Origin: Salinivibrio sharmensis
GTDB taxonomy: Bacteria; Pseudomonadota; Gammaproteobacteria; Enterobacterales; Vibrionaceae
Reading direction: 5' to 3'
Assembly: GCF_001995985.1 (NCBI RefSeq)
Contig: NZ_MUFC01000001.1
Location: 220,029-284,028 of the forward strand
Length of the DNA stretch: 64,000 bases
In this document: positions 42,343-52,633 of the stretch, in pieces
Layout: each line of letters opens with the position of its first letter
Numbering within the stretch: position 1 is the stretch's first letter
Notes under the pieces: generated by a model
Database searches by the model: none
What the model was told of the DNA's origin: nothing
What the model saw: only the letters and a program-made list of their open reading frames with translations
Position numbers and translations under genes: made by a program

Positions 42343-42384
42343 ATGATCTAAGTCAACATTCTACGCCCACCCTGTTGTTAGCAT
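42343..42384 (+). promoter_or_regulatory. FNR-type promoter of the transporter-pflB operon
   Basis: ATGAT-CTAA-GTCAA (42343-42356) matches TTGAT-N4-ATCAA with one mismatch per half. A -10-like TAGCAT lies at 42379-42384, exactly where a class II site centred at -41.5 predicts it, giving a start near 42391. FNR activation of pfl is established in E. coli. The remaining 42063-42342 holds a CGCCCG/CGGGCG hairpin near 42175-42194 and no gene. Confidence 0.65.
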
Positions 42385-42490
42385 GCTGATAACGAAACAG
42401 AACACGGCCATAAGGCCAGCGTTAACAACACATAAAGACTGGCTAAGCCACTGTTTCGAAAGCGTTTGCTTTCTGTACGACGAGGAAATT

Positions 42491-44002
42491 ATGGCAACAC
42501 ATGCTCAAGACCGCAGTGTGAGTCACGAAGAAAAGAGCGAATACCAAAAGAAGCACAAGCCGGCTTCTTCATTTGCCTCCCGCGCTGACTACCTGAATCA
42601 CGAACTACAAATTATGCGTCCGCGCCGTTGGGGCTTAAACCTGCCTGGCCGTGACTTCCGTTTTGAAATCGAAGACCTTGTCCCTGCTCTAGCGGGTACC
42701 ATCGGCATTATCGCCATGTACTCTGCAGTGATGATGTCTTGGGCGGACGGTTTAACCGCTGCTTGGGATCACATCACCTTGGGTAAAGCGTTTGCCGTAG
42801 AAGTGGCTCGGGTAGAAATGCTTATCCCAGCGCTTCTGTTCTGTGTCCTGTTGTGCGGGTTTATTAACCCACGCGCCAACTTGGCCGGCAACCATGGGCC
42901 TATGATTCCACTGATCGGTACCATCGCGTTAGCAGGTGCTCACCCATTGGCATTGGGGATCCTGATTGGTGCCTTTGGCCTGATACTCAGTTATCTAAAA
43001 GGTGGCTCCAAATTAGTCAACTTGACCAGTCAAGGGGTCGCCGGTGGCTTGCTGATCTTCCTCGGCTTTGGTGGCGCAAAAGGTCAGATTGAGAGTCTGC
43101 TCGCATGGGGCGCGGCGATTGATATGGGCTATATCTCCATTTTAATTCTCGCCGTCTCAATCGTGATCTATGCCTTCTTGGCGCGCATCGGTAAACGCTG
43201 GCTCGCGATTCCTGTGTGTGCGGTCACCGGCGGATTAATTGCTACCGCGCTGGGTGCTGGCTCTTCACTGGAGTTCGTCACTCAACCGGGCGTGCCTAAC
43301 CTTAATCCGGTATACTGGTGGGGTTCGACTGAGCAAGGCTGGCAACTCGGCCTTCCAAACCTGTCGCACTTCCTTGCCTCTTTGCCGTTTGCATTGCTGG
43401 CCGTGGCGATGTGGTCACCAGATTTTCTTGGGCACCGTATCTTCCAGGAACTAAATTATCCTAAGAAAGCCGAAAAAGTATTGATGGACGTGGATGACAC
43501 CATGACAGGTTGTTCTATCCGTCAAATGGTTGGTGCCTCTGTGGGTGGCGGTAACATCACCTCATCGTGGGGAACCTACATGATTCCGGCGGCGATTGCG
43601 CGTCGACCCATTCCTGGCGGTGCCATTGTACTGGGTCTGTTATGTATTGCCGTTGCCTTGATTGGCTACCCTATGGATGTCGCCACTTGGCCACCAGTGA
43701 TGACTATCGCGCTGCTATCGGGTGTGTTCCTGCCCTTGCTTGAAGCAGGCATGCAGATGGTGAAAGACGCCAAGTCGAGCCAAGCAGCGGGTATTTGTAT
43801 TTTCGCCTCCATGGCTGTTAATCCAGTCTTTGGTTGGGCAGTCACTATGCTCTTGGACAACAACGGCCTTATCGGTGATAAAGAGCGCCCAACAACGCTC
43901 TCTACCGTTGACCGTCTGGTGATTCCAACCGCCACAGTGATCATTTGTATTGCTGCCATGTTGGCAGTCGGAATGATTCCCGGCATTCCATCTTTGTTGT
44001 AA
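42491..44002 (+). CDS. DUF3360-like membrane transporter co-transcribed with pflB
   Basis: The 503-residue protein has about 12-14 membrane helices after an 80-residue polar N-terminus. NPRANLAGNHGPMIPLIG, LTSQGVAGGLLIFLGFGGAK and GASVGGGNITSSWGTYMIP recall the SulP/NCS2/UraA fold, in which paired half-helices bind small anions or bases. I believe it is DUF3360. It is not FocA, which is shorter and belongs to the FNT family. It lies between an FNR-type promoter and pflB with 133 bases to the next start. Pyruvate, formate or another organic anion is a reasonable guess for substrate, without direct evidence. GAGGAA precedes the ATG. Confidence 0.8.
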   Translation: MATHAQDRSVSHEEKSEYQKKHKPASSFASRADYLNHELQIMRPRRWGLNLPGRDFRFEIEDLVPALAGTIGIIAMYSAVMMSWADGLTAAWDHITLGKAFAVEVARVEMLIPALLFCVLLCGFINPRANLAGNHGPMIPLIGTIALAGAHPLALGILIGAFGLILSYLKGGSKLVNLTSQGVAGGLLIFLGFGGAKGQIESLLAWGAAIDMGYISILILAVSIVIYAFLARIGKRWLAIPVCAVTGGLIATALGAGSSLEFVTQPGVPNLNPVYWWGSTEQGWQLGLPNLSHFLASLPFALLAVAMWSPDFLGHRIFQELNYPKKAEKVLMDVDDTMTGCSIRQMVGASVGGGNITSSWGTYMIPAAIARRPIPGGAIVLGLLCIAVALIGYPMDVATWPPVMTIALLSGVFLPLLEAGMQMVKDAKSSQAAGICIFASMAVNPVFGWAVTMLLDNNGLIGDKERPTTLSTVDRLVIPTATVIICIAAMLAVGMIPGIPSLL

Positions 44003-49316: not shown

Positions 49317-50222
49317 TTACATCTCACGTCGCCGCGCCTTGGTCATTCGAATTGCTTCACGGATAATACAGTCACGCAACGGGTTATCCGCCGCGTCTGC
49401 TCGCCAAATAAAAGACAAGGTACGTCGCATATTTAGCTCAGGCACATTCAGCGCCACCAGCTCTTCGCGTGCTAACCACTTCTCGACATCAAGGTATGGT
49501 AAGCAGCTAAGATAATTGGAATTCGCTACCAAGGTACGTAATACCGGTACCTGCTCATACTCACGGCGCACATCAAGATCTTCGATAACGCCATGAATGG
49601 CACTATCAAAACTATGCCGCGTTCCCGCTCCCGGCTCTCTCAGCACCCATTGGGCTTGCTCCAGCTGCGCGAGGCTGACTTGGTCACGTTGTGCATAAGG
49701 ATGATGCTTGGCCGCCACCACCACCAAATGGTCATGGCACCACACCTGTTGCTTCAACCGGCTGTCGTCACAACGCCCTTCAATAATCCCCAAGTCGTGC
49801 TGATAGCGGCGCACACTATCAATCACCTTCTGGGTATTTTTCACCGTAAAGTCGATTCTCAGCTCGGGAAAATCACTATCAATAATACTGATAAGGTCTG
49901 GAATTAGGTGTTCTGCTGCGGTCTGACTGGCAATTAAGGCAATATCACCACTAATAATGTGCTGCCCATCAAACCCGGCTTCAATTTGTTGCGCGTCAAA
50001 CAGCAATTGTCGTGCTTTAGGTCGCAACCATGCCCCCCAATAGGTGAGCTGCATTTGCTTGCCTTGACGCTCAAAGAGCGGCCTACCGAGTAGCTTTTCA
50101 AGCTGTGAAAGCGCCATGCTGGTCGCCGACTGCGTTAACGCTAAATGGTCGGCAGCACGGCTCACACTGCCCATAGCGGCAATCGCTTCAAACACAGCGA
50201 GCTGCTTGAGTGAGTAGCGCAT
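49317..50222 (-). CDS. LysR-family transcriptional regulator divergent from focA-CBS
   Basis: The 301-residue protein has a LysR helix-turn-helix (about 1-60: LKQLAVFEAIAAMGSVSRAA, then LTQSATSMALSQLEKLLG) and a substrate-binding effector domain (about 88-295; SGDIALIASQTAAEHLIPDL, GAGTRHSFDSAI). It is close to the CysB/YeiE style of regulators. It diverges from the formate channel across about 200 bases with repeated ATCA/TGAT motifs, so it probably controls that gene. The effector cannot be read from the sequence. Confidence 0.9.
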   Translation of the reverse strand: MRYSLKQLAVFEAIAAMGSVSRAADHLALTQSATSMALSQLEKLLGRPLFERQGKQMQLTYWGAWLRPKARQLLFDAQQIEAGFDGQHIISGDIALIASQTAAEHLIPDLISIIDSDFPELRIDFTVKNTQKVIDSVRRYQHDLGIIEGRCDDSRLKQQVWCHDHLVVVAAKHHPYAQRDQVSLAQLEQAQWVLREPGAGTRHSFDSAIHGVIEDLDVRREYEQVPVLRTLVANSNYLSCLPYLDVEKWLAREELVALNVPELNMRRTLSFIWRADAADNPLRDCIIREAIRMTKARRREM

Positions 50223-50309: not shown

Positions 50310-50419
50310 AACCACAGGCATAGGCTGGATTTATTCACATTCAGTCTAAAAAGGAGTACAACCAGTATGTTTTTTTGTCTTCAAGGTCGGGCACCCATTG
50401 CCAAAAGAGGAGGCAGCCG

Positions 50420-51868
50420 ATGGTAACCCCCATTCACACTGACGGCCCCGCTGCTCTGCTGGTGCAAGCCGAGCAATACGCTGAGAGCAAGTCGCGCAAA
50501 TCCACCCGTATGGCCGTCGGACTGGCGATGATGGCAGGCCTATTTATCGGGTTAGCGTTCGTGTTTTACCTCACGGTCACCACAGGCAGTAATGCCGGCT
50601 GGGGGCTCACCCGACTGATGGGCGGACTGGCCTTTAGCATGGGGCTGATCCTCGTGGTGCTCGGTGGGGCCGAGTTGTTTACCAGCACGGTGCTATCAAT
50701 GCTCGCGCGTGCCAACGGCAAAATTAGTACGCGCAGCCTGCTTTATACCTGGGCAAGGGTGTATATCGGCAACTTATGTGGCGCACTCTTGTTGGTGCTG
50801 ATCGTAATGGCAGCGGGTTTATATCAGCTTGATGATGGCCAATGGGGGCTCAACGCCCTACACGTTGCGCAGCACAAACTGCATCACAGCTGGCTGCAAG
50901 CGTTCTCTCTCGGTGTGCTCTGTAATTTACTGGTTTGTTTAGCGATTTGGATGACATTTACCTCACAAAACCCACTGACTAAAGCCGTGATGGTGATTTT
51001 GCCTGTCGCCATGTTTGTCAGCACCGGTTTTGAGCACAGCGTCGCCAATATGTTCATGGTGCCATTGGGCATGAGCATCGCCACCTTCGCACCAGAAAGC
51101 TTTTGGCAAGCGGTGGGCAGCTCCCCCGCAGCCTTTAATGACGTCAATCTCATCCAGTTTATTAGCGCCAATTTAATCCCCGTCACCCTCGGCAATATCG
51201 TGGGTGGTGCCGGCCTTGTCGGCATGGGCTATTGGCTGATTATTAACCCAGAAAGAGAAAACAAAACCGCGCACATTTCTTCATTGACGCTCCCGTCTGT
51301 GCCTTATTCTGAGAGACCTGTTATGACCCAAGAAACCTTAACCATTGAAAACAATATGCAACCGGCTCAATGTGCCTTAAAAGCCCAGCAGTTTGTGGCT
51401 GACGCCTTAGAGCAACTTAATCGCCATCAACTTCAAGGCGCCCCTGTGGTAGACAGCCAGAATCAACTGGTTGGCTTTTTCTCGGTGCAGGATGTCTTGG
51501 TGGATTTATGGTGGAATGACTATCAACCAGATATGGATGCGAAAGTTGAAGATCTGATGCGTACCGAGGTACAAACGGTTGAGGCAGACCAATCGGTGAT
51601 TGAACTGGCGCAATACATGAGCATTGACAACCAAGTGCTTTACCCGGTCAGTGATACGGGGATTGCCACTCGCTTTACCACCCAATCAGCGTTAGAGCGC
51701 GCCAAAACACAAACCTTATCGCGCCCCTATATTTATCCGGTGATGAAAGATGAGCGCTTGGTGGGTGTGATCACCCGCGCCAATGTGGTTCGAGCACTCG
51801 CGCCACTTTACGGCAATGCGATGGATATTCTTCCCGCCGATGCGAAAGAAGGCTTAGTCACCGCGTAA
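50420..51868 (+). CDS. focA: FocA-type formate channel fused to a C-terminal CBS domain pair
   Basis: The 482-residue protein starts with a complete FNT channel domain (about 28-277). It carries T90 in ELFTSTVL and H206 in GFEHSVANMFM, matching the T91 and H209 gate residues of E. coli FocA, plus QHKLHHSW and IPVTLGNIVGG. A linker (280-300) leads to two CBS motifs (about 300-365 and 375-460), VMTQETLTIENNM through GFFSVQDVLVDL and DLMRTEVQTVEADQSVIELAQ through GVITRANVVRAL. CBS pairs bind adenine nucleotides. Coupling of formate flux to cell energy state is inferred. GAGGAGG (50407-50413) fixes the ATG at 50420. Confidence 0.93.
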   Translation: MVTPIHTDGPAALLVQAEQYAESKSRKSTRMAVGLAMMAGLFIGLAFVFYLTVTTGSNAGWGLTRLMGGLAFSMGLILVVLGGAELFTSTVLSMLARANGKISTRSLLYTWARVYIGNLCGALLLVLIVMAAGLYQLDDGQWGLNALHVAQHKLHHSWLQAFSLGVLCNLLVCLAIWMTFTSQNPLTKAVMVILPVAMFVSTGFEHSVANMFMVPLGMSIATFAPESFWQAVGSSPAAFNDVNLIQFISANLIPVTLGNIVGGAGLVGMGYWLIINPERENKTAHISSLTLPSVPYSERPVMTQETLTIENNMQPAQCALKAQQFVADALEQLNRHQLQGAPVVDSQNQLVGFFSVQDVLVDLWWNDYQPDMDAKVEDLMRTEVQTVEADQSVIELAQYMSIDNQVLYPVSDTGIATRFTTQSALERAKTQTLSRPYIYPVMKDERLVGVITRANVVRALAPLYGNAMDILPADAKEGLVTA

Positions 51869-51889: not shown

Positions 51890-51923
51890 CAACGCCGCCG
51901 GCCTGCACTGGCGGCGTTTTTTT
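51890..51923 (+). terminator. Terminator after focA-CBS
   Basis: AACGCCGCC, ten-base loop, GGCGGCGTT and a run of T. A strong stem shortly after the stop codon. Confidence 0.9.
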
Positions 51924-51967: not shown

Positions 51968-52633
51968 CTAACGCTCGGGTGAGAGATACTCTCGGTCATA
52001 AAAAGTGCGTAGCCAGTGTGGGCGGTACACAGCCATCACTGTCACCGCCATGCCATTTAATAGCGCCTCAGGGAACCACATCAGTAGCGCAATTTGCAGG
52101 TAGTTATGGACAATATCTTGCCAGCTGTGCCTATCAGCCAACCAATACCACAACGAGGTCACGGAGAGCTGGAATACCATAGTCAGCGCCGCACCGATGA
52201 ATGCAGCGATAAAGATATAAATAAACAAATGCCGGGTTAAGTAGTGGTAACTGAGCGCGAAAATGCCATAACTAAAGGTGATAGGTAAGACCGCCGTGGT
52301 CAATGCGGTCATGCCCACATCAGCAACGGGAACAAAACCAAACACTGCCATCAACGCCAGTGGCACAGTGGCAATCCAAATGGCAATGCGCCAACCGTGG
52401 CACAAAGCTAAGGTGGTCACACCTAAAAAGTGGATATCCAGCCCTTCTTTAATCCCCGCTTGGAGCGCCCACAAGGCAAACAGCACCACCGCGGAGGAAA
52501 ACGCCAAATGCTGATACCCGGTTTCTTGGCGCAGCTTAGAGAAAAACTCTGGTGGATAGGTCCGATACAACACCGCTGCCCACAATAACCAGCCGCCCCA
52601 CTGCCAACCACTCACTTCGGCGAACTCAAACAT
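51968..52633 (-). CDS. CbiM-like/COG3235 energy-coupling-factor membrane protein
   Basis: The 221-residue membrane protein has six to seven helices. LGVTTLALCHGWRIAIWIAT and LPITFSYGIFALSYHYLTRH with FPEALLNGMAVTVMAVYRP resemble the CbiM-like integral subunits of ECF transporters. No ATPase or T-component gene is adjacent and the N-terminal MHI motif of true CbiM is absent, so nickel or cobalt uptake is only a possibility. No cobalamin riboswitch is visible upstream. Confidence 0.7.
   Translation of the reverse strand: MFEFAEVSGWQWGGWLLWAAVLYRTYPPEFFSKLRQETGYQHLAFSSAVVLFALWALQAGIKEGLDIHFLGVTTLALCHGWRIAIWIATVPLALMAVFGFVPVADVGMTALTTAVLPITFSYGIFALSYHYLTRHLFIYIFIAAFIGAALTMVFQLSVTSLWYWLADRHSWQDIVHNYLQIALLMWFPEALLNGMAVTVMAVYRPHWLRTFYDREYLSPER

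Follow-up and report, generated by a model that had tools for sequence, protein, structure and literature searches.

A FocA-type formate channel with a CBS module in Salinivibrio and its relatives: a conserved internal start and a proposed MthK-like two-product logic

The window analysed here, a 64,000-nt stretch of DNA from Salinivibrio sharmensis, contains a 482-residue frame on the plus strand (50420..51868) in which a FocA-type FNT channel is followed by two CBS domains. Is such a fusion real, and what would a CBS pair do on a formate channel? The sequence-only reading answered the second question with a built-in sensor through which nucleotides would gate formate flux. Open reading frame, domain profiles and fused relatives all mark the fusion, and it is real: an assembly or frame artefact is excluded because full-length fused relatives exist in other genomes. 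The full-length start ATG at 50420 is preceded by a strong ribosome-binding site, AGAGGAGG (50406..50413, plus strand, duplex energy -12.0). A terminator-like hairpin, AACGCCGCC/GGCGGCGTT, with a T run lies 3' of the stop codon on the same strand (51891..51923), as read by eye from the sequence.

The channel domain comprises residues 16-273 (50465..51238). It matches PF01226 of Pfam with 245 bits (E 8.9e-73) and TIGR04060, the FocA equivalog model of NCBIfam, with 357.5 bits, above the cut-off of 290.1. The best Foldseek match is FocA (9i3k, E 1.1e-20), and the closest solved structures by sequence are also FocA. The gate threonine T88 and the pore histidine H206, equivalent by alignment to T91 and H209 of E. 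coli FocA, are invariant in all 184 fused family proteins, the window's included; the complete FNT channel with both residues, as read from the letters alone, is thus borne out. Channel domain, gate threonine and pore histidine are shared with the FocA proteins of E. coli, S. Typhimurium and V. cholerae (PDB 9i3k, 3q7k, 3kly), whereas the solved FocA chains are 280-293 residues long and the window protein carries a CBS pair in addition. A Y-L-R/K motif after TM6 is described for FocA (PMC5572259); the window protein reads I-N-P at this position and so differs from FocA in lacking this end motif. Among the 184 fused proteins, residue 275 is Tyr or Phe in 176 and residue 277 is Arg or Lys in 159. 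A search of the window's genome for a second FNT gene found none, leaving the fusion as the only FNT found there.

Upstream of the fusion lie a DUF3360 membrane protein, pflB, a chemotaxis receptor, pflA and then a divergent LysR-type regulator. The fusion sits after pflA and behind the LysR gene, whereas focA in E. coli occupies the position directly upstream of pflB. In the window this position is held by the DUF3360 membrane protein (42383-44002; PF11840, 903.8 bits). Downstream, a CbiM-like membrane protein on the other strand (51968-52633; PF01891, 53.4 bits) stands tail to tail with the fusion, and a YfbU gene is also found there. The LysR gene (49317..50222, minus strand; PF03466/PF00126) scores 214.5 bits against NF040889, the YeiE equivalog model with a cut-off of 480, and is therefore related to YeiE without being an equivalog. 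It adjoins the fusion in all 41 loci compared (40 related ones and the window), with an 83-aa frame between the two genes in one of them, and the wider neighbourhood changes among these loci. A LysR match is also present in 40 of 44 further stretches, including stretches with stand-alone CBS genes and no FNT, and its orientation varies. In Salmonella, YeiE has been linked to sulfite (PMC12880088).

The CBS pair was found in the same frame as the channel, within the limits that had been read, and matches PF00571 in three stretches with 56.8 bits in Pfam. By profile, model and alignment, CBS1 extends approximately over 51341..51505 and CBS2 over 51527..51817. We take S/T-x-x-D/N to be the nucleotide site motif of CBS pairs. 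CBS1 carries it as S355-x-x-D358, with the Ser kept in 183 of the 184 fused proteins and the Asp likewise in 183 of 184, and the matching CBS2 positions 452 and 455 vary among the same proteins. A model of the CBS part alone (mean pLDDT 75.8) is placed by Foldseek nearest to AcuB with AMP (9s52), CBSX2 with AMP (4gqy) and MJ0922. All three share the CBS-pair fold, and AcuB and CBSX2 were solved with nucleotides; their entries have no FNT channel attached, unlike the window protein, and the window family differs further in that one of the two binding motifs is variable. Because the CBS proteins nearest to the model include structures solved with and without nucleotides, an adenosine-type ligand at CBS1 is plausible and is our best guess. 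The linker of residues 276-305 (51245..51334) falls below pLDDT 50 in the fusion model and is likely flexible. The full-length model is weak (mean pLDDT 69.7, pTM 0.48), and for this reason no gating geometry was taken from it. A ligand-sensing formate channel, as originally proposed, is plausible and unproven, and we give nucleotide gating of formate flux even odds.

The survey of FNT-CBS fusions that the sequence-only reading had called for was run and covers 184 distinct family proteins and 32 loci of other families. Full-length fused relatives are found in seven other genomes of the genus at 87-98% identity and elsewhere in the family at 50-60% identity. The window protein finds a match somewhere in 294 of 296 family genomes at E <= 0.001, many of them full length, and its CBS part finds one in 209 of 296 at E <= 1e-30. 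The 184 proteins, the window's included and identical ones counted once, were drawn from part of these 209 CBS-matching genomes; G080, G083, G129 and G158 lack a full match at 1e-120. Fused frames also turn up in several other families of the same order, with lengths of 442-635 residues, and 32 such loci were examined; when the order was searched at E <= 1e-15 with a profile of the CBS part alone, 225 of 394 genomes matched, many of the hits being remote CBS proteins. Among 369 genomes sampled across the class, the window's own was the sole one to match at E <= 1e-28. Two Zooshikella records are among the relatives listed. The idea of a one-off fusion is rejected by this distribution, which is wide in the family and reaches other families of the order. 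A literature search for FNT or formate transporter together with CBS domain found no paper, and no use of 'CBS domain' was seen in the FocA papers among the matches listed. The main text of a survey of 2206 FNT sequences is free of the words CBS, fused and fusion (PMC5525234).

A comparison of the linkers points to a feature that the picture of a simple fusion does not contain. Just 5' of CBS1, the window gene has an internal in-frame ATG (Met302, 51323..51325), and an SD-like GAGAGA (51311..51316) stands 6 nt 5' of it. Translation from this ATG would yield a free CBS-pair protein of 181 residues (51323..51868). Met302 is placed where the probably flexible linker ends, as residues 276-305 fall below pLDDT 50, so that a protein beginning there would contain the complete CBS pair. 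The ATG is kept in 179 of the 184 family proteins: it is in range in 180 and missing in four, and the one of L145 is an unrelated upstream Met and was counted as lost. Its position shifts by no more than 3 residues in 110 of 111 loci, and in the linkers of 30 loci that were printed it follows a purine-rich stretch in every one. In the other families, whose linkers are otherwise unlike, an ATG precedes CBS1 directly in 31 of the 32 fused loci. L206, L217 and L221 have far longer linkers (frames of 559-635 residues) and retain the ATG with a good SD before CBS1.

The SD signal at this ATG was scored by duplex energy, with the best-scoring Met taken where several were in range, both in the family and in the 32 other loci. 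Energies of -5 or lower are reached in 164 of the family proteins that keep the ATG and in 28 of 32 loci of other families, with weak SDs in L213, L215 and L216. Relatives carry cores such as AAGGA and GGAG. The distance between core and ATG is 7 nt in 151 of 208 loci and 5-11 nt in all 208, a range bounded by design because the search was limited to -17 to -5 and accepted cores of at least 3 letters; in two of 210 loci (L215, L216) this search found no core. Over 110 loci the mean energy at the internal start is -5.85 and at the true start column -8.49; 200 synonymous shuffles average -3.29 (lowest -4.10), and 1885 other in-frame Mets average -1.44. Among the other in-frame Mets 11% reach -5, and 66 of the 110 genes hold at least one that is as strong as the internal start. 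The conserved internal Met column M74 has a mean of -6.16, owing to its Gly-Gly codons. SD energy alone is therefore no proof, as other Mets, M74 included, reach equal strength. The window gene itself has a weak internal SD (-2.9), outscored by several of its other in-frame Mets, so that its case rests on the relatives.

The codons and the mRNA around the site provide further evidence. Where a Lys stands at -4 in genes that keep the start, it is coded AAG in 146 of 146, compared with 599 of 2001 Lys codons (30%) gene-wide. Among 16 well-filled Lys columns, the -4 column has AAG in 150 of 154 and the other 15 range from 2% to 66%; Lys column 299 ranks third of 105 two-fold columns by codon fixation. 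Codon-context bias of Lys before Asp or Glu was considered as a cause and rejected, as AAG is used there in merely 41 of 281 cases. Conservation at the peptide level was rejected as the cause of the SD-like stretch as well: the core is found in each of the three codon phases, and the dipeptides it encodes include Lys-Glu, Glu-Arg, Met-Glu, Gly-Glu, Gly-Arg, Gln-Gly and Glu-Asp. The openness of the mRNA was assessed by folding 60-nt windows, a measure independent of how the site was found. The start window is within the most open 10% of its own gene in 196 of 210 loci, part of which is due to its composition (36% GC versus 46-48%). Compared with shuffles of its own letters the start window is again more open, with a mean z of +0.83 and 88% above zero in 179 family loci and +0.64 and 74% in 31 others, whereas windows at other Mets give -0.10 and 50% in the family and -0.29 and 48% in the others. 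In the window gene, the start region is the most open of the regions sampled. Taken at the nucleotide level, the conservation of the internal start looks like selection on the RNA, and by this comparative evidence the start is probably functional, a claim we hold with some confidence.

Additional evidence comes from genomes in which the arrangement has changed. In three of them FNT and CBS are separate adjacent genes (L190, L191 and L192); in L190 a single stop codon separates the two frames. The CBS ATG is preceded by an SD-like AAGGGAGG in L190 and by AAGGAGA in L191. In these split loci the CBS start signal takes the place that the internal one has in fused genes, and FNT and CBS can thus exist as separate chains. 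Five family proteins have no internal ATG, namely the sisters L106 and L132, then L145, L288 and L284. L284 has TTG instead and retains the SD. Four of the five have AAA as the Lys codon, so that AAG is gone together with ATG.

A stand-alone related CBS gene is present in at least 15 of the 296 family genomes, a number taken from the matches to the CBS part, with G195 and G109 examined individually. All five proteins that lost the start come from genomes with such a gene, versus 8 of the 179 that keep it (Fisher 7.7e-7); expressed by carriers among the 184 proteins, the start is lost in 5 of 13 versus 0 of 171 non-carriers. All five losses fall within one clade of ten, all carriers (support 0.909), and amount to about three events. 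As this clade makes up 8.7% of the tree length, the probability is about 7e-4 and not 8e-7. Eight carriers retain the internal start. The stand-alone CBS gene of G164, G206 and G117 is accompanied by a LysR gene of its own and followed by a membrane protein gene, and may therefore serve another purpose. The idea that a gained stand-alone gene simply makes up for a lost start is accordingly kept only in part, and the link is suggestive, not decisive, because the losers share one clade and the gene has its own neighbours. The membrane protein beside it, taken from G164, has no Pfam match. In L251 (3002-4564) and L186 (4598-6127), membrane protein frames of 521 and 510 aa follow a stand-alone CBS gene and a divergent YeiE-related LysR, a module of LysR, CBS and membrane protein in stretches without FNT. 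Outside the family, the linker of L183 lacks an ATG and a stand-alone CBS gene lies close by, and no close stand-alone copy was found in G306 and G330 (L215 and L216).

We propose that one gene gives two products, a FocA channel with tethered CBS pairs and a free CBS pair that regulates the channel, with a rough probability of 0.6 on comparative grounds. Translation from 50420 would give a channel protomer with its CBS pair on a flexible cytoplasmic tether, and translation from the internal ATG at 51323 would give the CBS pair alone, a product for which comparative data, separate-gene counterparts and the CBS-only model speak. The CBS pair would be the regulatory unit of the channel, and the conserved site in CBS1 would most likely bind an adenosine-type nucleotide. 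FNT channels assemble as pentamers, and CBS pairs usually form dimers. Five tethered CBS pairs therefore cannot all pair mutually, and free pairs would solve the mismatch. Free copies may pair with tethered ones, as free RCK domains complete the gating ring of MthK, and the bound ligand would then control whether the formate path is open or closed. The fusion, its conservation and the nucleotide-level conservation of the internal start stand on direct comparison, whereas we infer the use of the start in cells, the binding of free to tethered CBS, the ligand and the direction of control. Assembly of free CBS with the channel, argued by analogy, is given slightly less than an even chance. With respect to the built-in sensor, the conserved CBS pair on a FocA channel and the retained CBS1 motif stand, and the simple built-in picture is incomplete in view of the separate CBS genes and the conserved internal start.

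It could be argued that the CBS pair gates the channel solely in cis and that the SD and ATG in the linker are chance or a relic of the fusion event. Fusion and CBS1 motif are conserved, as this explanation expects, and an internal Met would be the natural first residue of a former CBS protein; in seven of the eight Salinivibrio-genus genes the SD has moreover the weak value of -2.9. A relic should decay, yet the AAG at -4 is fixed against a gene-wide share of less than a third, the SD core is kept across codon phases and peptides, and the start window is more open than its composition predicts. We consider a purely cis-acting sensor unlikely for this reason. A pause site, where the SD-like sequence slows ribosomes between the membrane and CBS domains for folding and starts nothing, would fit its position at the domain border, and SD-like sequences inside genes have been discussed as pause elements. 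An ATG would be superfluous for pausing, yet it is present at start-like spacing in nearly every fused gene examined, and four of the five genes that lost it also lost the SD codon; we regard this possibility as very improbable.

A free CBS protein may also be made and act elsewhere, for example on the neighbouring YeiE-related LysR, with no assembly on the channel. The constant company of LysR, both beside the fusion and in most of the further stretches, is in its favour. LysR genes beside transporters are common, however, and two of the three split loci (L190 and L191) have no LysR match in their stretch, from which it follows that FNT and CBS can stay together without LysR. Action elsewhere seems improbable, a little more so than the sensor confined to cis. 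The two-product reading, with free CBS pairs acting on the channel, is thus preferred.

Internal starts that supply free regulatory domains are described in other systems. In the MthK K+ channel, four RCK domains are tethered and four more are free, translated from the internal start Met107 (PMC9440719, PMC2920069). Both genes join a channel to a C-terminal regulatory domain; ligand binding by that domain and an internal start in its frame, known for MthK, are proposed for the window gene. The two differ in channel fold, regulatory fold, substrate and symmetry, MthK being a tetramer and FNT channels pentamers, and the free regulatory product of MthK is known whereas the free CBS product of the window is a prediction from sequence. 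For E. coli Kch, removal of a putative internal start brought no change (PMC2920069). In the enterococcal phage endolysin LysIME-EF1, the C-terminal domain is also translated separately from an internal RBS and ATG, and these free copies join the full-length chain (PMC7098653); this is an unrelated protein, and the second product is demonstrated there and predicted in the window.

The conserved internal start is a stronger finding than nucleotide sensing, and together they would describe a FocA channel with a CBS module for which an MthK-like two-product logic is proposed. In its most specific form, which we put forward tentatively, free CBS modules would pair with the five tethered ones of a pentameric anion channel into a nucleotide-gated ring, an MthK-like design of independent origin in the FNT family; in some lineages a gene of its own would supply the free copy. 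If true, extra regulatory domains provided from an internal start would be a feature of a second channel family, one that differs in fold and symmetry. The free CBS pair would also be one more protein to count in many Vibrio, Photobacterium and Salinivibrio genomes. For FNT control beyond pH and contact with PflB, the fusion offers a direct way to ask if a nucleotide signal governs formate flux.
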